Shown: positions 22,581 to 62,930 of the stretch, one piece after another | Position numbering within the stretch: position 1 is the stretch's first letter | Layout of the letters: each line of letters begins with the position of its first letter | Assembly (NCBI RefSeq): GCF_032854445.1 | Contig: NC_088305.1 | Coordinates: 13,087,606-13,151,605, forward strand | Direction of reading: 5' to 3' | DNA: 64,000 nt | Source: Liolophura sinensis | Lineage: Eukaryota > Mollusca > Polyplacophora > Chitonida > Chitonidae | Notes under the pieces: model-generated | Databases searched by the model: none | Seen by the model: the letters and a program-made list of their open reading frames with translations, nothing else | What the model was told of the DNA's origin: nothing | Position numbers and translations under genes: made by a program

Positions 22581-25500
22581 GTAAGTTACCAGGCCAAGGC
22601 ATGAAATATTCTTGAGAACAGTGAATCTAACCAATTGGCATTAAATAATAATATCCAATTTTTTTCTAGAGCACGACATCAAACACCAACTACGTAAATA
22701 AATAAATAAATCAAATTGGTACTGGATGGCAGGTTGCAGTAAGAAGCAAGTGTCGTGTGAGACGTTCCAAACTGGGATTGCAAGGGAACAGGACAAGCTG
22801 TTGATTATTGACCGGCAGTGATTCTTTGATTCAGTTGTAGTCTACAGGACAGAATGACCTGACGAGAAAAAAACCACCAAAGTTATGAAAACTAATGGCA
22901 GATAGGTTTGGTGTGAACTACACCCTCAACTGCCAGGCAAGTGCATTCATCTCTAAGTCTTAGTTCATCCAATCAAAATTGTCTGTCGACGACTCAGCAC
23001 AGTGGTCATGTAAGGTCACACGAGAATTTCCAACTGGCTAAATAGTGACATGAAGGCTTACTCTCAATGTAATGTTGACACTAAAGTAACATGAAGACCA
23101 ACTCTCAGTGCAAGGTGACACCAAAGTTACATGAAGGCTTACTGTCAATGTAACGTTGACACTAAAGTGACATGAAGACCCAGACTCTCAATGCAATGTG
23201 ACACCAAAGTGACATGAAGGCTTACTCTCAATGTAGCGTTGACTCTAAAGTGACATGAAGGCTTACTCTCAATGTAACGTTGACACTAAAGTGACATGAA
23301 GACCAACTCTCAGTGCAATGTGACACCAAAGTTACGTGAAGACAGGTTCTCAATGCAATGTGACACCAAAGTGACATGAAGACAGGCTCTCAATGCAATG
23401 TGACACCAAAGTTACACGAAGACAGGCTCTCAATGCAATGTGACACCAAAGTGACATGAAGACAGGCTCTCAATGCAATGTGACACCAAAGTGACATGAA
23501 GGTTTACTCCCAATGTAACGTTGACACTAAAGTGACATGAAGACCAACTCCCAGTGCAATGTGACACCAAAGTTACGTGAAGACTGACTCTCAATGCAAT
23601 GTGACACCAAAGTGACATGAAGACTGACTCTGAATGCAATGTGACACCAAAGTGACATGAAGACTGACTCTGAATGCAACATAACACCAAAGTGACAACT
23701 CTCAGTGCAACGTGACACCAAAGCAAGCATCCAAACAAGACTAAGTAGAATAGTGTTGTGTTAAATTAAAGATGAAGGCAAATACATAGATGAAACAGGA
23801 ATGAAAATAGAAAGTCACTGTGACACAAGGAAAGGACACACAGTGGCGCACATCCAAAATTGTTGTCAGAAACTCTTATTGAAATGATTCTCCTTTTTCA
23901 ACCGAGTCTTGACTGGCTTTGCTTGAGTCATGATGGCAGGAGGTTTGTATAAAATGTCCATATATACACATACATGTATGTAGGTGGTTTCCTTTATATT
24001 CTACCTGGTTTCCTACAGATACTGCCTGGTTTCCTACAGATGCTGCCTGGTTTCCTACAGATGCTGCCTGGCATCCTACAGATGCTGCCTGGTTTCCTAC
24101 AGATGCTGTATGGTTTCATACAAATGCTGCCTTGTTTCCTACAGATGCTGCCTGGTTTCCTACAGATGCTGCCTGGCATCCTACAGATGCTGCCTGGCAT
24201 CCTACAGGTGCTGCCTTGTTTCCTACAGATGCTGTATGGTTTCATACAAATGCTGCCTTGTTTCCTACAGATACTGACTGGTTTCCTACAGATGCTGCCT
24301 GGTTTCCTACAGATACTGCCTAGTTTCATACATATACTGCCTGGTTTCATACAGATGCTGCATGGTTTCATACAGATCCTGCATGGTTTCCTACAGATGC
24401 TGCATAGTTTCCTACAGATACTGCCTGGTATCCTACACATACTACCTGGTTTCCTCCAGATTCCAAAAGGTTCCTTCACCAAAAATGATCAGATACACAT
24501 GTATTCTGCCCTATGTGCACTTCTGTGGACCAATGAGGTCAGTCAGGTATCAGTATAATGGTTCGGGCGGGGCGGCTTACTTGCCTTTGATAAGACGTCT
24601 CATTGAAGCAGCACTAGATAAAACAGCGGTGGAAATCCGTCCTGCAACAAGGAGGCACATTACATACACTTTAAGGATTCCTTCGTCGTCATATGACTGA
24701 AAAATTTTTGAGTACGACATTAACCCCAAGCACTCACTCAATCACTCACTTTAGGAAGGCGTATTAATCAGCCCTCTGAGTTCATAACAAGTGCAACTCT
24801 TGCATACTTGTTCAACTGTAAAACATAGTAATAAATATATAACGTATGTATGGTGAGAATTTAAAGCATTGCTGGAGTTCATCAGTTGACATTAAAGATG
24901 TTTTCTATCTTGATGTAGATAGTCTGTTTGTTGCCTAGTTCAGTTGTTTACTGCCTTGTAGTAGATTGGTGTGTTGGTTGCCATGTTGTTGAACATGTGT
25001 GTTGGTTCCCTTGTTGCTGATCAGTGTGTTGGTTTCCTTGTTGTTGATCATTGTGTCGGTTGCCTTGTCGACCTGTATGTTTGTTACCTTGTTGATCATT
25101 GTATTGGTTGTCTTGTTGTTGATCTGTGTGTTGGTTGCCTTGTTGTTGATCTGTGTGTTTGGTTGCCTTGTTGTTAATCACGATTTTGTGTGCCAGTTGA
25201 TGATTAGTGTATTCGTTGCCTTTGTTTTAAGCATTGTGTTTGTGGCTTTGTTATCGATGAGTGTATTGTTGCGTTGTAGCTGATCGGTTTGTTCTTGCCT
25301 GGTTCAGTGCATTTATTGCCATTTTTGTTGATCATTCTGTTTGTTGCCTTGTTGTTGATCAGTCTGTGTGTTGTCTCGTTGTTGATCAGTCTGTTTGTTG
25401 CCTTGTTGTGGATCCGTCTCTTTGTTGTCTTGTTGCTGATCGGTCAATTTATTTATTGCCATTTTTGTTGATCCGTCTGTTTGTTGCCTTGTTGTTGATC

Positions 25501-28500: not shown

Positions 28501-31500
28501 ATGGTCATGGGTTTTCTTGATGTCTTCCCATTATGTGGGAAAGTTTGCCAGCAACCTGCGGGTGGTGGTGGGTTTCCCCCCGGGCTGTGCCTGGTTTCCA
28601 CCCACCATAATGCTGTCTGCCGTCACTTAGGTGAAATATTCTTGAGTAAGACGTAAAACGCCAATCAAATTTATAAATAAATCTCGATGTCTGTCAGGTT
28701 TCTTTCCAACATGATAGTGGTTGTTGTCGTGTAAGTGAAATATGCTTTGATTAGTGAAAATCAACTGTTTACCAAAAATCTCCCATATAGCCTCTTTATA
28801 CAAAACATTGAACAGGTTTTATTATAAAGGAACCTTAACTTCAACCACAGAGATATATTTACAGACCAAGTCAGTTTTTCAACTGAAATTTTCTCACCTT
28901 GAATGTTTCATCAATGCAGCGGACACCAGTGGACTTCATACTAGCATAGTCACGATACCTTTTGGCTCTTCTGTACACTATGCCGCGCCGATTTCCTTTC
29001 TAAGTGAAATATTCTGTGTAAAACTTAACTGCAATCAAATAAAAACAAATAAATACTTTGCTTCTTAAAACTAAAATGCCATGTATATAATCGAGAAAAA
29101 AAAAATCGAGAAGTCTTGGGAACCATCTGTGTTTTGAACCACGTATTTGTAGGTGGCCTCGGGTATGGTCGCATGTACATTTGTCGCTGCACCTCTCATG
29201 TTCATATCAGCCAAGATGATGACCCTGGTGGTGAGCTCAGAGACGGACTACAAAAGCGTTCTACTGGACACCTCGCTAGATGTCTCTATCGTCAGTATGA
29301 TCGGCTGTGTGAGTAATGGCTCGTCGTCCCAAAGCTGTTCTCTTGTGCTGATTCCCACGAAGTTTTGACTTTGACTCAGAATTTGAAACATGATTTTAGA
29401 GCTTATTTTCAAGCCTTCTGAATTAAAATTTTTGACCACCTCATTATCAAGTTATTGTATGACGAATGTGTGAAAATTTCAACTTCTAAAAACCAAGAAC
29501 TAATTATTGTGATAATGTTTTAAATTTTGACTTTATCAGAAATGTCAGGAATTGGCCCCTGGTCAAGACAGGGCTACATTCTAACACTATCATCGTCCAG
29601 TCAGACTAAGCTTTTGAAAATACTTCAACTTTTACTTGATCATTTGAATGATTTGCAGTGGAAATGGCTCATTTTTTTTCGTTTTTTGCCAAGACTACAG
29701 TGCAATTTCATTATTTACATGTAATGTTTTCGTTTCAAAATGTGAAAATAGTAAAAAAATCGAGATAAATTATACATGTAGAATGATTATAACTCTCTGG
29801 TTTCCTCTGGTCATAAGTGGGAAGTATGGTGTTATACAACATTCAAATAAATAAGTAAATTTGCTTTTTGTGTGGTTGCAGGTGTGGGTGGCTGGTGTGT
29901 TCATTCTGTCCAGGAAGTGGAGGCGTGTGCCTCATCAATTCACACTCTGTCTTATCTTCTCCCAGGTAAAATATTCACACAAATCGGTGGACTTTTCTCA
30001 AAGGTTCTACACTGTCAACTCGATATTTAAATTATTTGACAGTGTTCCTGACACAGCTCTCGTAGAAGATCTTAAGGCAATTAGCCTATATCATAAAACA
30101 TAATTTTATACATTTCTATGTGTATATAAAATTTCCTAGATTATACGTTATATCAATGCGAGGTTTTCAAATATTCAGGTGGATAAATTGTTTTCAAAGT
30201 TGTGAACAGTTGTGAACAAGTTCTAAACATGTGAACAGGTTTATAAATAATTAGGTTGAAACGATTAAGAAATAGGTCAAAATGCCTGAAAAAAAGCTTG
30301 CAAGTAATTTCACTGGCTGTTTGTTGTTTCAGTTTTTGGCATGCCTGGGTATGGTCTTGTACCGGGCTCTGGATGCTGATGACACCTGGCAGCACTATGC
30401 CCAGTTTGTCGTCCTCCTGGTGGGCGTGCTGTCGTCACGCTGCTGGACAGCCATGATCGCCGTGGCAATATGCCTAGAGCGCGTCAAGAGCCTGTGTTAT
30501 GTTTTGCGCGTCAGAGTCTGGATGGCTTTCTTCGGGTTTGGGTGAGTGGGAGTTGCCAGTTTCTGCCCGAAGAATCAATATGTTATCCCACCAGTTTTTC
30601 TCACCTGAATCTTTTTTTCCTGGAATGACTTACCTAATTATCTGAAGTTTAGTGGGAATAAGGAAATGACTTATACATCCCACCAGTTTTTCTCACCTGA
30701 ATCTTTTTTCCTGGAATGACTTACTCACTTATCTGAAGTTTAGTGGGAATGAGGAAATGACTTATACATCCCACCAGTTTTTCTCACCTGAATCTTTTTT
30801 CCTGGAATGACTTACCTAATTATCTGAAGTTTAGTGGGAATGAGGAAATGACTTATACATCCCACCAGTTTTTCTCACCTGAATCTTTTTTCCTGGAATG
30901 ACTTACTCACTTATCTGAAGTTTAGTGGGAATGAGGAAATGACTTATAAATCCCACCAGTTTTTCACACCTGAATCTTTTTTCCTGGAATGACTTACCTA
31001 ATTGTCTGAAGTTTAGTGGGAATACTGAATGACGTATACATCCCACCAGTATTTCTCACCTGAATCTTTTTTCCTGAAATGACTTAGCTAATTGTCTGAA
31101 GTTTAGTGGGGACAAGGATATGACTTATACATCCCACCAGTTTTTCTCACCTGAATCTTTTTTTCTGGAATGACTTACCTAATTGTCCGAAGTTTAGTGG
31201 GAATACCGAATGACCTATACATCCCACCAGTTTTTCTCACCTGAATCCTTTTTTCCTGGAATGACTTACCTAATTATCTGAAGTTTAGTGGGAATGAGGA
31301 AATGACTTATAAATCCCACCAGTTTTTCTCACCTGAATCTTTTTTCCTGGAATGACTTACCTAATTGTCTGAAGTTTAGTGGGAATACTGAATGAAGTAT
31401 ACATCCCACCAGTATTTCTCACCTGAATCATTTTTCCTGAAATGACTTACCTAATTATCTGAAGTTTAGTGGGAACAAGGAAATGACTTATATATCCCAC

Positions 31501-34500
31501 CAGTTTTTCTCACCTGAATCTTTTTTCCTGGAATGACTTACCTAATTATCTGAAGTTTAGTGGGAATAAGGAAATGACTTATACATCCCACCAGTTTTTC
31601 TCACCTGAATCTTTTTTCCTGGAATGACTTACCTAATTTTCTGAGGTTTAGTATACAAAAAGGCACTTTCAGAAGCTCACAATGACCTTATAATGCGGAC
31701 TCCTTAAGTGGACCTGTCAGACGGATGAATCCAACCAACTGTGTCACTTGCAAAAAGCTAAACTTTAGGAGATATACAGTACATGATACATCATGATTTA
31801 TTCTGATCAATCGGTTTTGTAAAGGTTGATTACTTTATTATTAGAAAAACTTAAAAAAGTATCATTTTCAGGCTTTTAGCAAGTGCATTTTTACATACTA
31901 AACTTGCAGGAAAGAAGTACAGTACATATAAGTGTAATTCGGGATGCCCGTGTAGGTATTGATTTTTTGCCTTGGCACATACTGTATTTCTGATTCGTTT
32001 ACAGGGTTCCAATGATTAGTACTGGCATCCTGCTCATAGCTGCCAATAACCACACCAAGAATGAGATAGACCCATCCTTCCACTATGGAACAGACCAGGT
32101 ATTTCTTTTCCTTTGTGAACCGAGCTGAATGTTTATTCACAAAATGTACAATGTATGTACAATGATAGAGTTTCTCATAAAAGGCAGGAATAAAGTCCGA
32201 GGGACTTGAACAGGGGTATAAACAGGGGAGACAACTCCGGCAGTACTCTTAGAATGCTAAGAATATTAAGATTTTAATCTGAATTCTGATGCCTTTGTGG
32301 AACTTGTGGACAAAACTCAAAAGAATATGTAAAACCAATAAAAAAATGATCTGTGAAATAGAAATCAGTCTTTCAAAGTTTGACGTAAGTGAAATTAAAA
32401 TATTCACATCTAACTGTAAGTATCTAACAGGAAGTAACCTTTGTCTGTCTTCTTGGCGGGAGTATTGCTGTGGACATAATGATTGCATTGACAAAGATCA
32501 TGTGACAAATAAGAAGAGCACGAGTTCTTATAAATTTAAAATTGTCATTTTTGTGTTCCAGACGATCCTGTCAGTGGTGATATTGTTGTTGTGTTTTGTG
32601 ATCTGCGTCGTGTCGCTGGTGATTCACCAGAGGACTGAATGGCATGCAAAGCATCGCACGTTCTCCTGGGCCTCAGACGAAGAGGAACCCCTGTTCTCTA
32701 ATGTCGACGAGACGATGTCATCTGGCCCCAATATGGCAGCCACAGAAGTCAACGGGGCCATCAACGGAGCTGTCAAGAGTGAGGTTGCCAAAGTGAAATC
32801 AGTGAAAGGCAAGAAGAGAGAGAAGGTCACGAACTGTCACAACTGTGAAAATAGTGAAGCCATTCGCTGTGGAGGAACAGGAGAAGGTAAAAACTAATCT
32901 GGTGGTGGTGGTGGTGTTTTTATGTGACAGTTAATATGGTGTTGTTGTTGTTTTTATGTGACAGTTAATGTGGTGTTGTTGTTGTTTTTCTGTGACTGTT
33001 AATATGGTGTTGTTGTTGTTTTTCTGTGACTGTTAATGTGGTGTTGTTGTTGTTCTGACTTTTCCTGCTTTGAAGTACTTTGTATCACATTGAAAAGTGT
33101 GAAATGCACCGCAGTCGAGTAAAATAATGTCCGATTAAGCAGTTCATGGCTATCTTCTACAGCTGGCACACTGTTGATCTTCAAATATCTTTAAAAAAGA
33201 ATCAGATATTCCCAAAAGTTGTGATGTCCCGCCTTGACTGAGTGCTGTCTTGCACTCAAGAACTTTGTTAACTGAATCACCCGTCTCATATTAAATGTTG
33301 GGATGGTAAAAGTATGAGTGACCGAATGATGGTGAAACCAACGGAGAGACAGACAAAGCAACTTATCGTGCAGCTAAAAATTTAATAATCAACCTTACAT
33401 GTATAATTAGCTGGTTTTTGTTTTGAATTATTCAAATATTTGAATATCTGTGGTCAGTGTTTAATTTGAACTTCAGTCGAGTTCGTTCAGACAAAGCTGT
33501 TGTGCATGTTACAGTTCAGAGTATAGAGGATATCATCCCGTTCCCTAAATCTCAGGACAGTCTGGGGTCATCCACGACCAGCAACAGTGCAGACAGCATG
33601 GAGTCCCTCCTGCATGAGGTGATAGATGATCACACCTGTGTCACGGCCTGCAATGATCAGCAGCGGCGTGAGTGTGAAGGTCTGCTGCGGCATTACACGG
33701 CTGTCAACGCGGAGAAGGAGGAGGAGCCGAAAGTGCTGACGAGGGAGGCGGAGCGTGAGAGTCAGGGAGACATGCAGCTGTCACGACACCTAATTCTGCT
33801 GTTACTGCTCTGTCTCTCCATGTTCATTGTAAGCCTTTGGCCCACCCTGGCCCAAAACAGGGCCTGTATTTATCAATTGTATTAAAGACTCAAAAATTTA
33901 AACTCAGCTACAGTTAAAATGTTCTGCTCTAGGAAGTATAAAATTTGCACACTCTTTCATGCAGGATATTGAACCAACGAAAATTTTGAGTTCTTCCCTG
34001 TTCTAATTTTGACTTTTTAAGCAGTTGCAACTTTTTTTGTGAGTCTTAAGATGCTTGATAAAACACTTGATATATGATGTCACAGATCTGTGGTGAGAGT
34101 ATCTTAGTTAAAATGGACTGTGTTATTGATAATAACAAAGAAGTTGAGGCAACACCATGTAAATATGAACAGGCTTTTCACCCTCTTTGGATCTTTGTGT
34201 AGATCAAGTCATTTAAATCAAAGATCCATATTCCTTTTAAATTGCAAATTTTAAATTTTAAAAAAATTTTGCACATTTTTATCACTTGACAGTGAGTCTT
34301 TCAAAAGGCTTGTGAAACCGTTTACATTTACGTGGTGGTGCTTCGACTTTTTTATTGTTATCATTGACCATGAGTTTAAAGCAGTTTATAATATTGTGTC
34401 ACTGTTTTCTACTAATGACAGTGAATTTTGGGTACTGAAATTCTTCAACCTTCAAAATATACTTGTTGTAAAGCCCTAAAATCTGCCGATCCAACCAATG

Positions 34501-53696: not shown

Positions 53697-53743
53697 TCAC
53701 CGAGCCCCTGGAGGCGGAGGAGGGGGACCTCGTCGAGATGAAC
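53697..53743 (-). CDS. WIPF1: WIPF terminal coding exon
   Basis: Acceptor GTGTGTTTCAG|GT, 15 full codons: S-S-R-R-G-P-P-P-P-P-P-G-A-R then TGA (53699-53697). With the split glycine it matches the vertebrate ending GSNRRERGAPPLPPIPR in plan: basic pair then a proline run and a final arginine. The 3' UTR continues towards lower coordinates; its end is not determined. Confidence 0.88.
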
Positions 53744-56700
53744 CTGAAACACACACAAATCCATTAGTTAAATATTTCTCACATGTACACCTTAAAGATT
53801 TCGAGCTTCCAGGCTTTTTGCGGGAGAAACATTGAAATTTCCAAGCTTTTTGCAGGGGAAATATTGAAATTTCCAAACCTTTTGCAGAAGAAACTATGAA
53901 ATTTCCAAGGTTAAATTAGGTTAGGCTCACGAAATGGATAGCGGGAAACTTGGTGTAACAAATAGTTTTTTGTTCAACTTTTTGTTAAAATGTGTTAAAT
54001 GCATTCAAGTGTATGAATTTTATGGTGGGCTTTAAGAACCACATACATTTGTTTAGCTACTCTGCTGTCACAAGAAATTTTTTCCCCACTCTACACATAG
54101 CTATCAGTGTAATAACTCTTACTGCCGATGTGTTACTGGTTCCTTAAATAAAGTTCAGGAAGAAATCATGGTAATTTGACATCCGCGTACTTTTCCACTG
54201 GCAGTATGGTCCATATAACCCACCTTACAACTTCAAATATTAGGCTGCTTTTATTCAATAAATTACATCTTTATAGCCAGTTCTCAATGGTCTTACTTCA
54301 TTTTCCCTTGTCCAGAATGCTTTACCTACTAGTCCAGACTTTGTACATCAACATGCTCAATACACCATTCACCTGGATTCTGGCTGTGACACTGGCATGA
54401 ATACTCGACCTACTTAAAACACACCACTCACCTTGATCTATTCTGGCTGTGACACTGGCATGAATACTCGACCTACTTAAAAGACACAACTCACCTTGAT
54501 CTATTTTGGGTGTGACACTGGCATGAATACTCGACCTACTTAAAAGACACAACTCACCTTGATCTATTCTGGGTAAGACACTGGCATGAATACTCGACCT
54601 ACTTAAAAGACACCACTCACCTTGATCTATTCTGGGTGTGACACTGGCATGAATACTCAACCTACTTAAAAGACACAACTCACCTTGATCTATTCTGGCT
54701 GTGACACTGGCATGAATACTTGACCTACTTAAAACACACCACTCACCTTGATCTATTCTGGGTGTGACACTGGCATGAATACTCGACCTACTTAAAAGAC
54801 ACCACTCACCTTGATCTATTCTGGGTGTGACACTGGCATGAATACTCGACCTACTTAAAGCACACCACTCACCTTGATCTATTCTGGCTGTGACACTGGC
54901 ATGAATACTTGACCTACTTAAAACACACCACTCACCTTGATCTATTCTGGGTGTGACTGGCGTGAATACTCGACCCACTTAAAAGACACAATTCACCTTG
55001 ATCTATTCTGGGTGTGACACTGGCATGAATACTCGACCTACTTAAAACACACCACTCCCCTTGATCTATTCTGGCTGTGACACTGGCATGAATACTTGAC
55101 CTACTTAAAACACACCACTCACCTTGATCTATTCTGGCTGTGACTCTGGCATGAATACTCGACCTACTTAAAAGACACAACTCACCTTGATCTATTCTTG
55201 GTGTGACACTGGCGTGAATACTCGACCTACTTAAAACACACCACTCACCTTGATCTATTCTGGGTGTGACACTGGTGTGAATACTCGACCTACTTAAAAG
55301 ACACAACTCACCTTGAGCATTTCTGGGATTTGTACTAGGATAAGTTTTTGTACAATTTGCAAACGTTTCTGGAGGGGGCAATGTATTCACTTCATGGAAC
55401 TTAAACCTGGATTCAAAATCTGAAAGAGAAATGAAAGATCAGCAATATGCAATATACTAAGGATATACTATAGGATATACTATAGGATTACGATGAAGTG
55501 TTACTCATTACTCGCTGCTTCTCATGCTACCAGTTCTGTACTATCACAGATGATCCCTGACGTTCATGTTGGGGTCTCCGTGGCTCACTTTGTTAGTGCG
55601 CTAGAGCAGAGTAATGGCCCAGGAGCCTCCCACCAATGCGGCCGCCGTGAGTTCAAGTCCAGCTCATGCTGGCTTCCTCTCCGGACGTACATGGGAAGGT
55701 TTGGTAGCAACCTGCGGATGGTTGTGGATTTCCACACGGTTCTTCTCCGCTTCTTGAGTACGGCATAAAACACCAATCAAATAAAATGATGTTTACGGTT
55801 TTCACTTTCTAAAACAATGCAATATAAAATATAAAATAAAATAAACACCACCAAGAAAAGTCTTTAAAACCAAGAACAATTTCATCCTGATAAATAAATA
55901 CATCATTAGAAATACATATATACATATAGGGAAAATGACATGTATACCCTAATAAATAAAAGGCATTCAATTTTACATGTACCTTATCTGTCTGACCTTG
56001 GCAATCAATAAAAGCCTGTTGTACACAAGTGACACTTTCTGTTTCCATACTGCAGTAATGTAGTACGTTTCTTATCAACTTTAAACTGTGAGTATATTTA
56101 ACACATACATGAACACTGCAGTTTCCTGGTTGGAAAAAGACCCTTCTTATCATGTGCATGTGTCATTGGTGTTAAATGCTCAAGGCAGGTTTACTTAAAC
56201 AATGTCGATCAGTTTTATGAATGGAAGAAACCAGAATACACCGAATAAAACCACTCGCCTCTGGCAAGTAACTGGCTCACTTTTCCAGATGCAGACTTTA
56301 ATGCTCAAGGAAGTTGTGCTTAAATGATGTTAATGTAGTCAGTTTTATGAGTGGAAGAAACCAGAATGCACCGAGCAAAACCACAGCCCTTTGGCAAGTA
56401 ACTGACTGACTTATTCAAATGTAGACTTTAATGCTCAAGGAAGTTGTACTTAAATGATGTTAGTGTAGTCAGTTTTATGAGTGGAAGAAACCAGAATGCA
56501 CCAAGCAAAACCACAGCCCTTTGGCAAGTAACTGACTGACTTATTCAAATGTAGACTTTAATGCTCAAGGAAGTGGTACTTAAACGATGTTAGTGTAGTC
56601 AGATTTATGAGTGGAAGAAACCAGAATGCACCGAGTAAACCACTCGCCTTTGGCAAGTAATTGACTCACTTTTCCAGATGTAGACTTTAATGCTCCAGGA

Positions 56701-59051
56701 AGATCTACTTAAACGATGTTAGTGTAGTCAGTTTTATGAGTGGAAGAAACCAGAATGAGAACATCATCAGGATTAGAAACTTAACCTATGAGCAGTTTCA
56801 CCCTATTGCAGAATGATTTCCTGTCAGGCTAATCAAATTATGAGTGGCAATGAACGAAGCAGTTGGTTGTTCAACACCAGCTAATGTAGCCATCAAACTA
56901 ATGTCACAGGTTTTCACAAATACACCACTGGTAAAAATAAATAAAGCTTGAGTTTAACTGAATGGGAAAAAAAATGAATGTTAACTCCTTGAAATTTGAT
57001 TTAAAATTTTGGCAAGGTCCTCAAATTCTCCATCACAAGCTTCGAGGTACGGCATGCAGAGAAGACACACCCTTAAAGTGACCTGGAGTCAGACAAGGTA
57101 TGAACTGAGCTGGCAGGTGATTGCCGATCTGTAATCCTCGTGGCACCCGTTTGTGTTACAGAATTCTGAATTGTTCTGAATTGTCCTGAATACGCAAGTA
57201 ATAACACTTGGAAGTGAAAACCCAGACTTTCCTCTTTAGTGGACAATAATGCCCTTTGGCTTTGTATCTCTACAAGTCCTCCATCACCACAATGTGTCTT
57301 GGAAGAAAGTTGGTCCAAATTTTCTCAATCTGTGGCATTCTTTTCTGACGATGTGTGTAACACGACAGTGTCCTGCACTGTGTTACAGTAGTGACAAATA
57401 ATACATGGGCAAGGCACGATTGCGAAATCAGCTGTGGAATAAAGCAATTGTCTCCAATGGCCTGTGTTGTAAACATGGCTGTGACGCCACACAGTCCAGG
57501 CAAGGATCACTGTAATAGTGAAGCCGATCTTCTGATGTTTGATCACCAAATTTGATCTATTGTTGATCGGGATCTATTTGAGAAACATCATACCACCTGA
57601 TGTTGGGTGCCGGGGATCTACTTCAAACATTATTTGGGGCAGTGTACTTGTACTGAATATTAATCAAATATTCTGACAATGTTATTAAATCTTATCATTA
57701 AGCCCCCGTCATGACATTATGCTCAAACTATCATCTCTGTATGACGGCTAGACAAAACATGTACACTGATCATGACAATCGATTTGATCAACGAAGGCCA
57801 CTGGTCTCATCCCGTTGGGATACAGTCGGTATATCACATACTAACCACCAGGCCACAATAGATGTGGGATTTAAAGTTAGGAAGCGGCTGTACTTGTAAT
57901 GTACACCACCAGATATAAAGCTGCACCTGACATCAGCACGAACTGAAGAAACACCCTAACCTTCCAAACTAATGGTCAAGGACCACACAGTATTACGGTG
58001 GGAGGAAACCATCTGCAGGTTCTGGAAGACCCTGCCACACTCAAACGGTGAGGAAGCCAGCATAAGCTGGGCCTGAACTCAAAGCAACCACATTGAGGAG
58101 AGGCTTCGGAGCCATTGTCCTCCACTGGCATGCCAACCATTTGGCCATAGAGACCCCCCAGAAACCAACGAGGATTAAGGCGCTGATATGGATCAGCTTA
58201 TACGAGACAAGGTACAGTAACTGAGGAAGCTTGAGTATCGTACGTTACCACCTGATCTCAACAAAATAACTTACCATTTTCATTTAAACTAGTGCTGCTG
58301 GCCCCTCTTGACGGTGGAGGGGGTGGCTTGGAACCCATGTTTCGTATAGGAGGGGGAGGGGCAGCATGTGGGGGAGGGGGTGGGGGCGCCCCAGGTCCTC
58401 TAGCTGGAGGAGGGGGAGGCTTAGCAGCTGGGGGGCCCCGCCCAGTCGACCCGGCAGACACTGTCCTCTGTGGTGGAGGGGGAGGGGCACTCCGGTTGTT
58501 AGGAGGAGGGGGTGGAGCTTGTGAGCGTGTTGGCCCTGTGGGGAAGCGCCCACCCGACACGCCAGGAGGAGGCCCAGGGTGAGCTGGGGGAGGGGGTAAG
58601 GGCCGCGTGGATATGGTCTTTGCGTTCATACTGTTCTTGTTCAGATTCACACTTGGCGGTCGGCTATTGGTTTCGTTCTCTGCTGTCACAGAGGGTGGCG
58701 GCCTGCTGGGTGGGGGAGGAGGGGGTCCTCCCGGAGCACGTCTGGCGTTGGGAGGCGGGGGTCGGTTAGCTACTCTCCCTGGAGGTGGGGGAGGAGGTGC
58801 ACCATGGTTGGATCGAGAGTCAATGTTATTAGAGTTGTGATTGCCGTTTTCCGATCCAAAACGATTGCCGACAGCAGGAGCACCGTACTTGGTCACTGGC
58901 TTATTAGAATTGGGCGGGGGTGGAGGAGGCCCGTTACTTGCGGCTACTGGCCCGTTGCTGATCTGTCTGTTCGTCACCGGCTTGTTAGAGCCGTAACCAC
59001 CAGCTGGTCCAGCACGATTTGCCCCTGGAGGTTTTAATGGTTGTGGCGGAG
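53697..59051 (-). CDS. WIPF1: WASP-interacting protein (WIPF/verprolin), 3' part, three exons
   Basis: Minus-strand exons 59051-58275, 55419-55312 and 53743-53697 chain in phase 1 at both junctions: ...S-L-N-E-N-D-F-E-S-R-F-K-F-H..., then N-A-Q-G-S-S-R-R-G and proline-rich end. The product is the C-terminal 310 residues of a verprolin/WIP protein; these bind WASP/N-WASP through the ESRFxFH...LPPPE motif, profilin and SH3 domains through poly-proline, and with an N-terminal WH2 domain bind actin. The WH2 exons are not in the window or were not found. Vertebrates have three paralogues (WIPF1-3), so this is best called a co-orthologue; the symbol is by neighbourhood and similarity. Confidence 0.9.
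53805..53910 (+). repeat. 41-bp tandem repeat next to the WIPF terminal exon
   Basis: Three units containing GAAATTTCCAAGCTTTTTGC and GGAGAAAC; about 60 bp upstream (in gene sense) of the terminal exon acceptor. Confidence 0.85.
54380..55311 (-). repeat. 63-bp minisatellite carrying duplicated 5' splice sites
   Basis: 14 units of 63 bp (one with a 2-bp deletion near 54955) follow the WIPF WASP-binding exon without a gap. Each unit copies the exon end (CCCAGAATAGATCAAG against CCCAGAAATGCTCAAG in the exon), the donor GTGAGT and about 40 bp of intron. Donor boundaries after the real 55312 include 55249, 55186, 55123, 55060 (GT lost), 54997 and 54936, ending at 54432. Units are 21 codons long, stop-free and in frame with the exon until the 2-bp deletion. 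Confidence 0.95.
55312..55419 (-). CDS. WIPF1: WIPF WASP-binding exon
   Basis: 108 nt, acceptor TTTCTCTTTCAG|AT, donor CTCAAG|GTGAGT. Encodes (D)F-E-S-R-F-K-F-H-E-V-N-T-L-P-P-P-E-T-F and then T-K-T-Y-P-S, matching the WASP EVH1-binding segment of WIP (ESRFYFH...LPPPEPY...TKSYPS). This is the functional hallmark of the family. The end of this exon and its donor are copied 14 times in the minisatellite immediately downstream. Confidence 0.95.
55570..55788 (+). mobile_element. SINE family A with internal deletion
   Basis: Head GGGGTCTCCGTGGCTCACTT and core present; the ATAATGCTGGCCGCC to GTGAAATA segment is missing before the tail. Located in the WIPF intron. Confidence 0.9.
56170..56752 (+). 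repeat. 130-bp tandem repeat in the WIPF intron
   Basis: About 4.6 units, with ATGCTCAAGG at 56176, 56301, 56431 and 56561 and a variant at 56690. Each holds AGTCAGTTTTATGAGTGGAA and GGCAAGTAACTGACT. A related single stretch occurs at 47690-47780, so the unit derives from a dispersed element. Confidence 0.9.
57985..58164 (-). mobile_element. SINE family A, 3'-truncated
   Basis: Reverse copy lacking the tail half: TTACGGTGGGAGGAAACCAT to GGCCATAGAGACCCCCC. Just downstream (gene sense) of the WIPF proline-rich exon. Confidence 0.85.
58275..59051 (-). CDS. WIPF1: WIPF proline-rich exon
   Basis: About 259 codons. The acceptor TTCTTACAG|CT is at 59052/59051 and the donor AATG|GTAAGT at 58275/58274, phase 1 at both ends. 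It is rich in proline and glycine with repeated APPPPP-type profilin/SH3 motifs (GAPPPPPPG, QAPPPPPN, SAPPPPPQ, KPPPPP) separated by serine/asparagine linkers, including a N-rich stretch. This is the central region of WIP proteins. No globular domain is seen. The G-rich plus strand gives misleading long open frames opposite to it. Confidence 0.9.
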
Positions 59052-59859
59052 CTGTAAGAACAAAAAGAGAAAGGTAAGTTCATGTTGAATTGGTCTTTTC
59101 ATTACCTGGGTACATGACAGGTGTTTTATGTGACATTTTACTCCAGATTCAGTGCGGGATTATTAGTGCCGGATACTAACCTCATTTGCTTGCCCAGATA
59201 CGTCAGCAGACAAGTCTCTTAACAAAGCCACAGCTGAACCAGCAAAAGCTAGAAAGTAGATTTGAACTTGTAGACCTAATTGGTCAAGGTGCCATAAATG
59301 CTTTGAAGAATCGAGATTAACAATGACACCTCCAATCTCTATTTAGATAACATCACCTTTAATTCTCAGTTTTAATCTGAGCCCGCTCTTTATGTAGCCC
59401 CATGTCTGAACCCAGGGATCAACATTGACCATAAAATGTCACAGGACTAACTCGGCCAATGGGCTTTGAAAACTACAGGTCCTCCTCAATACTAGCTGGT
59501 ATTTTTGTTATAAATACAGAAATTACTATGAAACTGTTCTCTAAGACTTATTTTCATCTTAATGCATAGTATCTAGTGGGAGCCACAGTGGTGATTGCTT
59601 CCTGAAAAATGTAGGTATGTTGACTGGTATCAAACTATGTAAATCACAGGCAATACTTAAACTGGGACGGCGCAGCGAAAACACCACTGGCCTTAGACCA
59701 ATGGACCAGTTTTACATGTTTATCATGATCCCTGCAATCTCCAGTATGTAAAAAACACTCTTTGAACTCCAACCACGTCTGATTCTCTGGGACAACACTT
59801 GAAACCTTACTACATGACTACATGGAAAAAAAAATACCTACTGTATCCAAGTCAGGAAG

Positions 59860-60112
59860 AGGATTTATTTATTTATTTATCTGATTGGTGTTTTATGCCG
59901 TACTCAAGAATATTTCACTTATACAATGGCGGCCAGCATTATGGTGGGAGGAAACCGGGCAGAGCCCGGGGGAAACCCACGACCATCCGCAGGTTGCTGC
60001 TAGACCTTCCTACGTACGGCCGGAGAGGAAGCCAGCATGAGCTGGACTTGAACTCACAGCGACTGCATTGGTGAGAGGCTCCTGGGGGCTAACCAACTGG
60101 AGGCCCCAGTCA
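59860..60112 (-). mobile_element. SINE family A, nearly full length
   Basis: Reverse copy from TTTATTTATTTATCTGATTG to CTAACCAACTGGAGGCCCC; a few bases of the region between B box and head are missing. In the WIPF intron. Confidence 0.92.
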
Positions 60113-60965: not shown

Positions 60966-62930
60966 TATCACAGAGCCTGCCACACACATTACACACATGT
61001 ACATCTTTATGATCAGAGCCTGCCACACACATTACACACATATACATCTTTATGATCAGAGCCTGCCACACACATTACACACATATACATCTTTATGATC
61101 AGAGCCTGCCACACACATTACACACATGTACATCTTTATGATCAGAGCCTGCCACACACATTACACACACATACATCTTTATGATCAGAGCCTGCCACAC
61201 ACATTACACACATGTACATCTTTATGATCAGAGCCTGCCACACACATTACACACATATACATCTTTATGATCAGAGCCTGCCACACACATTACACACATG
61301 TACATCTTTATGATCAGAGCCTGCCACACACATTACACACATGTACATCTTTATGGTCAGAGCCTGCCACACATATTACACACATCTACATCTTTATGAT
61401 CAGAGCCTGCCACACACATTACACACATGTACATCTTTACGATCAGAGCCTGCCACACACATTACACACATGTACATCTTTACGATCAGAGCCTGCCACA
61501 CACATTACACACACATACATCTTTATGATCAGAGCCTGCCACACACATTACACACATATACATCTTTATGATCAGAGCCTGCCACACACATTACACACAT
61601 GTACATCTTTACGATCAGAGCCTGCCACACACATTACACACATGTACATCTTTACGATCAGAGCCTGCCACACACATTACACACACATACATCTTTATGA
61701 TCAGAGCCTGCCACACACATTACACACATGTACATCTTTACGATCAGAGCCTGCCACACACATTACACACATGTACATCTTTACGATCAGAGCCTGCCAC
61801 ACACATTACACACATGTACATCTTTACGATCAGAGCCTGCCACACACATTACACACATGTACATCTTTACGATCAGAGCCTGCCACACACATTACATACA
61901 TGTACATCTTTATGATCAGAGCCTGCCACACACATTACACACATGTACATCTTTACGATCAGAGCCTGCCACACACATTACACACATGTACATCTTTACG
62001 ATCAGAGCCTGCCACACACATTACACACATGTACATCTTTACGATCAGAGCCTGCCACACACATTACGCACATGTACATCTTTACGACCAGAGCCTGCCA
62101 CACACATTACGCACATGTACATCTTTACGATCAGAGCCTGCCACACACATTACACACATGTACATCTTTACGATCAGAGCCTGCCACACACATTACACAC
62201 ATGTACATCTTTACGATCAGAGCCTGCCACACACATTACGCACATGTACATCTTTACGATCAGAGCTGCCACACACATTACACACATGTACATCTTTACG
62301 ATCAGAGCCTGCCACACACATTACGCACATGTACATCTTTATGATCAGAGCCTGCCACACACATTACGCACATGTACATCTTTACGATCAGAGCCTGCCA
62401 CACACATTACGCACATGTACATCTTTACGATCAGAGCCTGCCACACACATTACACACATGTACATCTTTACGATTAGAGCCTGCCACACACATTACGCAC
62501 ATGTACATCTTTACGATCAGAGCCTGCCACACACATTACACACACATACATCTTTACGATCAGAGCCTGCCACACACATTACACACATGTACATCTTTAC
62601 GATCAGAGCCTACCACACACATTACACACACATACATCTTTATGAGCAGAGCCTGCCACACACATTACACACACGTACATCTTTATGATCAGAGCCTGCC
62701 ACACACATTACACACACATACATCTTTATGATCAGAGCCTGCCACACACATTACATACATGTACATCTTTATGATCAGAGCCTGCCACACACATTACACA
62801 CATGTACATCTTATGATCAGAGCCTGCCACACACATTACATACACGTACATCTTTATGATCAGAGCCTGCCACACACATTACACACATGTACATCTTTAT
62901 GATCAGAGCCTGCCACAAACAGTACATGCA
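60966..62930 (+). repeat. 43-bp minisatellite, about 45 copies
   Basis: Unit begins GATCAGAGCCTGCCACACAC and ends with ACATCTTTAT or ACATCTTTAC. All copies are direct and contiguous, with substitutions such as TACACA/TACGCA, and one 1-bp deletion near 62266. Because 43 is not a multiple of three and the unit has no stop in any plus frame, it produces a spurious 473-codon open frame. It lies within the WIPF intron, antisense to the gene. No spacers, so not CRISPR-like. Confidence 0.95.

Follow-up and report, generated by a model that had tools for sequence, protein, structure and literature searches.

Within a 64,000-nucleotide stretch of the Liolophura sinensis genome (hereafter the window), the 5' splice site of a coding exon has been multiplied by a minisatellite that begins inside that exon. 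This raises the question whether the resulting row of donors serves the gene or is a mere by-product of repeat growth. The gene is a WIPF gene, given that its WASP-binding exon matches the WIPF1 chains 9s9x_B (E 8.6e-8) and 2ifs_A (E 1.8e-6) in a phmmer search. All features that concern it lie on the minus strand (Table 1), and the upstream proline-rich exon joins the WASP-binding exon in phase 1 (G/AT).

Table 1. Features of the WIPF locus, in positions of the window; a slash marks an exon end.
Feature	Position	Strand	Remarks
Upstream proline-rich WIPF exon	58275..59079	-	Donor GT at 58274; open frame 58258..59079; 5' end approximate
WASP-binding exon, 108 nt	55312..55419	-	Encodes FESRFKFHEVNTLPPPETFANCTKTYPSTNPRNAQ; ends in ...NPRNAQ G/
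Real 5' splice site GTGAGT	55306..55311	-	9-mer AAG/GTGAGT; GT begins at 55311
63-bp minisatellite	54377..55327	-	TRF: period 63, 15.1 copies, 93% matches; begins within the exon
Donor positions 1-8	55311, 55248, 55185, 55122, 55059 (GT to GG), 54996 (GTGAAT), 54935, 54872	-	
Donor positions 9-16	54809, 54746, 54683, 54620, 54557, 54494, 54431, 54372 (CAG/GTGAAT)	-	
Copy with lost donor, GGGAGT	55054..55059	-	
Copy with altered donor GTGAAT	54991..54996	-	Last in-phase donor
2-bp deletion	54956..54957	-	Approximate site; ends the phase for later units; spacing 61
Stop codon in the exon's frame	54932..54934	-	Reached once donors up to 54935 are skipped
Last degenerate donor copy CAG/GTGAAT	54367..54372	-	Spacing 59
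Last coding exon	53697..53743	-	GSSRRGPPPPPPGAR and stop; acceptor TTTCAG directly ahead of 53743; open frame

The array as delimited by TRF spans the exon-intron boundary, with its edge inside the exon. As the original prediction had proposed, the 63-bp units carry a copy of the last 16 nt of the exon together with the donor: CCCAGAAATGCTCAAG, with which the exon ends, and CCCAGAATAGATCAAG, with which the unit ends, are identical at 13 out of 16 positions. The predicted row of candidate donors comprises 16 positions when the real one is counted. GT is kept at 15 of these (14 of the 15 that follow the real donor), and the 9-mer AAG/GTGAGT is identical at 13. Two positions read GTGAAT, and one copy has indeed lost its GT (55059). 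Only the coordinate of the real donor needed a shift by one base, as 55312 is the last base of the exon and not the start of the GT. Spacings between donors amount to 63 in 13 out of 15 cases, the two exceptions being 61, due to a 2-bp deletion, and 59 for the last one. The edge copy stands outside the homogenisation of the array: the exon end differs at 3 out of 16 positions from the tail (AATAGATCAAG at its end) that is common to 14 of the 15 units. A unit with the donor consensus begins at the real exon end, which is the arrangement of the IFI6 type. In the 609-Mb assembly, all eight matches to the exon end plus the first units fall in the WIPF locus alone, in a search that ignores very common words. 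An unrelated intronic minisatellite that resembles the exon end by chance, or an assembly artefact, would be a conceivable source of a shared exon stretch of just 16 nt with 13 identities. Yet, exon tail and unit tail line up precisely relative to the donor, the array runs on directly from the exon, and further exon ends of the genome show this anatomy too, which makes this explanation hardly credible.

Other repeats occur in the window as well. In a 91-bp array on the minus strand (30585-31652), each unit holds two motifs that resemble donors, AGGTAAGT as well as AGGTGAGA, with no coding exon visible by eye at the 5' edge of the array. A 21-bp array on the plus strand (23985-24461) has an acceptor-like TTTCCTACAG in its units and matches a simple acceptor pattern 14 times, with no exon visible by eye. 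A further array extends over two kilobases (60971-62926; 43-bp unit, 45.5 copies, 96% match). Two similar stretches, at 55580-55770 (minus strand) and 59885-60074 (plus strand), have GVLCRTQE in common in their translations; presumably they resemble a molluscan tRNA-core SINE.

If later WIPF donors were used, the outcome would depend on the copy. When joined to the last exon, which starts at 53743, donors 55248, 55185, 55122 and 54996 are in phase and would add 21, 42, 63 and 105 residues, respectively. From donor 54935, the last exon would be read in a different frame, and from 54872 onward the extended exon runs into the stop at 54934..54932. The exon's frame is the sole open frame of the unit consensus. 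The units ahead of the deletion, which we place at about 54957, are thus in phase and stop-free, as predicted. It had also been suggested that the array tunes isoforms, with the copy number determining the number of 21-residue blocks placed between the WASP-binding motif and the C-terminal tail. Copies 1, 2, 3 and 5 keep the phase, contain no stop and are provided with a GT, three of them share the 9-mer of the real donor, and the downstream copies of the human IFI6 array set a precedent (PMC4526556). The units themselves, however, show no constraint on the encoded protein. The 13 full-length units show 30 departures from their consensus, of which 7 are synonymous and 23 nonsynonymous, with 21% synonymous changes expected (4 out of 14 when only distinct changes are counted). 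Selection on the encoded 21-mer is therefore not supported by the 30 changes in these 13 units, which are as often nonsynonymous as by chance. The 9-nt donor stretch collected three changes compared to 40 across the other 54 positions of the unit, but it is not exceptional, as 10 out of 63 circular 9-nt windows (itself counted) have equally few. Taken together, neither the peptide nor the donor of the WIPF units is clearly protected. The sister arrays described below add that 9 out of 10 reach no later donor in phase before a stop, and we regard the tuning of isoforms as quite improbable.

The frequency of such arrays was estimated by a census of three AGGTRAGT octamers in tandem, separated by gaps of 40-70 or 70-100, with the reversed octamer as a control. 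The donor motif gave 2553 matches versus 1394 for the reversed octamer with gaps of 40-70, and 3050 versus 1143 with gaps of 70-100. The tandem ratio of donor to reversed motif is thus 1.8-2.7, while single octamers are nearly balanced (50,973 versus 47,894; ratio 1.06). Hand-counting arrays on one contig (C1) up to 5.02 Mb over both gap ranges resulted in 27 donor and eight reversed-motif arrays (binomial P 0.003, with the single-octamer counts as null). Because a single reversed motif makes a thin control, a shuffled octamer was added, which yielded 2007 matches (reversed: 965), the former number being inflated by GAT microsatellites. As match counts vary by motif, the enrichment figure is rough and the claim based on match counts is weakened. 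In the same part of C1, hand-counting at gaps of 70-100 gave 22 donor, seven reversed, seven shuffled and four acceptor-like arrays. Among the matches listed, 19 (gaps 40-70) and 22 (gaps 70-100) arrays are found per 100.

Do these donor arrays start at coding exons? The 32 donor arrays among the matches listed (L005-L036), which all lie within the first 10.5 Mb of C1, were oriented by donor strand, and edge frames of at least 25 codons were scanned with Pfam (E 0.001). The 51 frames of the 5' edges gave six distinct kinds of hits (Ank, SUFU, Prominin, Branch, SNF2 and DUF3535), taken as six out of 32 arrays. No Pfam match occurred at the 3' edges of the 32 arrays, neither antisense (62 frames) nor sense (58 frames), or at both edges of 16 reversed-motif control arrays (52 frames). 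Since the edge scan does not name its members, five hits were placed by direct scan (L006, L012, L019, L029, L034) and SNF2 was placed in L010 via a PDB match. The contrast of 6/32 with 0/32 has a Fisher P of 0.024, and that with 0/16 a P of 0.16. Restricted to arrays that gave frames, the values are 6/26 versus 0/29 (P 0.008) and versus 0/14 (P 0.07), and merging two hits in one gene leaves 5/25 versus 0/29 (P 0.017). PDB searches with chosen 5' edges confirmed L010 and added L011 (E 3.8e-11) as well as L007 (E 1.8e-15) and L030 (E 1e-6), both RPTOR; the search with L036 found no match. Homology hence indicates that nine of the 32 donor arrays have a coding exon at their 5' edge; the nine are not independent, as three lie close together in what is apparently one gene and two in RPTOR. 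By eye, L025, L036 and L075 also seem to be coding, without a match found.

The exon ends belong to genes of different kinds: BTAF1/Mot1-like (L010, L011, L012), RPTOR (L007, L030), SUFU (L029), prominin (L019) and ankyrin (L006). BTAF1/Mot1 is the name that we presume both for DUF3535 and for the chains labelled 'Helicase-like protein' to which L010 and L011 match. The protein match extends to the last residue ahead of the donor in L007, L010, L011 and L030; the exon end is only approximate for L034. Each unit of the exon-end arrays includes some 16 to 56 nt of exon sequence. Three separate donor minisatellites (L010, L011 and L012; C1 4.18-4.20 Mb) lie in the apparent single BTAF1/Mot1-like gene. 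The 81-bp array L026 encodes a cysteine-rich repeated sequence, to which the antistasin hit probably belongs; its AGGTGAGT may therefore be coding and not a donor. The yield of arrays per 100 matches listed, combined with nine out of 32 arrays with homology, suggests some hundreds of such exon ends genome-wide, an order of magnitude extrapolated from one end of one contig. Donor-copying boundary arrays are apparently frequent in the genome of L. sinensis.

Ten arrays were read beyond their first donor (L006, L007, L010-L012, L019, L025, L029, L030 and L036; eight with homology). A stop follows after two codons in L010, L012 and L025 and after 10 to 30 codons in L006, L007, L019 and L029. Only in L011, which stays open for 64 codons, does the frame arrive in phase at a later donor before it is stopped. 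This one case among the 10 arrays read does not support the view that copies are generally in phase, so that a unit that is a multiple of three and stop-free is an ordinary outcome and no evidence of design. Given these stops, splicing routinely from later copies would disrupt most of these proteins. When the next exon of L011 is joined in phase at the first donor, the homology covers 102 residues and needs no insert (E 2.4e-31), and the first copy is therefore the conserved donor in this one case tested.

A row of donors might also be useful without being spliced. The original prediction mentioned a buffer of U1 sites. On this reading, U1 bound to the extra donors would make splicing more efficient or shield the intron from premature polyadenylation, and selection would retain the arrays. 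The enrichment of donor octamers in tandem, as opposed to their near balance as singles, agrees with such a role, and so does the variation of the donor motif relative to other unit positions in four exon-end arrays, where the ratio stays below one half (L007: 0.17; L019: 0.16; L029: 0.40; L030: 0.46). Four other exon-end arrays show no such reduction (L006: 2.26; L010: 1.02; L011: 0.91; L034: 1.84), and the median of the eight homology-supported ones (0.685) is close to the 0.63 of the control motif. Overall, donor positions are about as variable as the rest of the unit: after dropping four of 32 donor and four of 16 control arrays whose TRF consensus lacks the motif, no protection of the donor motif was detected across arrays (median ratio 0.90 for 28 donor versus 0.63 for 12 control arrays; Mann-Whitney P 0.31). 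As the motif is no better kept than the control motif, and the donor stretch of the WIPF unit is not exceptional, a U1 buffer seems quite unlikely.

On the acceptor side, triples of the acceptor-like TTTYCAGR gave 1488 matches versus 590 for the reversed motif. Single motifs are skewed as well (163,988 versus 84,669), so that the acceptor-like motif is little enriched in arrays relative to singles. With gaps of 70-100, the first 100 listed matches stretch across 71 Mb of C1 for the acceptor-like motif and across 5 Mb for donors. A Pfam match at the exon-side edge was obtained for one of 25 acceptor-motif arrays (25 fetched of 29 listed). This array, L068 (about 488-1220, oriented), precedes a C2H2 zinc-finger exon whose start and acceptor have been copied upstream, mirroring the WIPF case. 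Arrays across an exon-intron boundary are known from amphioxus as 'mirages', and L068 demonstrates that acceptor mirages exist in L. sinensis too. They look rarer than donor mirages, possibly because pyrimidine tracts may be poorer minisatellite formers or because copied acceptors may be less tolerated. The Pfam contrast alone (6/32 versus 1/25) is weak, and the contrast in array density carries more weight; a preference for donors over acceptors is only suggestive, as neither gene density nor the effect of the motif is controlled for. The presence of donor arrays along with one acceptor array at exon boundaries would suit an intermediate of intron gain, in which copies provide proto-splice sites and later new exons or introns, a model proposed for amphioxus globins (PMC3087553). 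Nonetheless, a simple scan of the WIPF array gave no pyrimidine-tract acceptor, and the model describes a possible future and no present role, leaving this a very improbable account of the array.

In our judgement, the WIPF array is most likely a neutral donor-type mirage, of which the first donor is used and the other copies have no function. The basis for this reading is the anatomy of the array, the identity of the gene, the sister arrays that start in coding exons and the lack of a clear sign of selection; from these we infer how the array arose, that the first donor is used (nearly) exclusively and that the copies lack a function. The array would have started when a segment across the exon end and the intron start was duplicated in tandem, and it would then have grown and homogenised within the intron. 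Selection on the exon would have fixed the first copy in place, where it would serve as the used donor. The remaining 15 positions would be neutral by-products that are ignored or seldom used by the spliceosome. Some points speak against a neutral mirage. The first WIPF copies are in phase and open, unlike most sisters read, and 13 out of 16 donors are perfect. In some exon-end arrays, the donor motif is far less variable than the remaining unit positions, the excess of donor-like octamers in arrays is not obviously predicted by plain random seeding, and human IFI6 is reported to make use of downstream copies of such an array (PMC4526556). Tentatively, and with more doubt than belief, we propose that in L. 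sinensis minisatellites preferentially arise or persist at real 5' splice sites, far above 3' sites, that in hundreds of genes an exon end is trailed by between several and dozens of nearly identical donors and that the exon-proximal donor is reliably taken. If true, this would amount to a genome-wide natural experiment on donor choice. Exon ends with strings of identical donors would test the choice between exon-proximal and intron-proximal sites and its failure rate, and also whether splice sites attract repeat growth or merely tolerate it.

Comparable arrangements are known from other animals. A minisatellite with multiple splice donor sites was reportedly described in human IFI6 (6-16) by Turri et al. 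in 1995; its repeat unit is short (12 bp). It lies at an exon end, and two downstream units are reported to be used as donors, giving three mRNAs (PMC4526556). The WIPF array likewise is a minisatellite at an exon end with a donor consensus in its units; the IFI6 downstream units are donors in mRNA, whereas those of WIPF are candidate donors read from sequence. In human segmentally duplicated genes, internal tandem repeats at exon-intron boundaries change gene structure (PMC2812944). These share with WIPF the expansion of a minisatellite at a boundary, but include exon-retained repeats and new introns and are not specifically donor-copying arrays. No mollusc mirage reports were found among the open-licence papers searched, and the retrieved portion of a gastropod intron paper (PMC7931591) makes no mention of minisatellites or tandem repeats.

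The closest relatives are the mirages of amphioxus, as described in two papers (PMC3087553, PMC3902484): minisatellite-like tandem duplications of an exon-intron boundary, with many units bearing AG/GT signals, edge copies that escape homogenisation and both boundary types represented. They are described in Adh3, the globins BflGb6 and BflGb9, TnC and PGBD5, and are reported not to interfere with regular splicing. The WIPF array resembles them in its boundary-spanning position, its copies of a splice signal and its unhomogenised edge copy. It differs in its mollusc host, in the many arrays on one contig with several in one gene, and in the donor type, which by motif census looks commoner here than the acceptor type. 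The mollusc origin is mirrored in eight consecutive haemocyanin beta-sandwich matches on contig C8, a molluscan feature that 14 control genomes lack and that makes amphioxus an unlikely host. The amphioxus mirages also come with RNA evidence, while the WIPF array was read from DNA. The kind is already known, and the WIPF array by itself is a curiosity of a named kind. Mirages are nevertheless present outside the amphioxus genes found in the literature, and it is their frequency in the L. sinensis genome, over the single WIPF array, that is worth pursuing.
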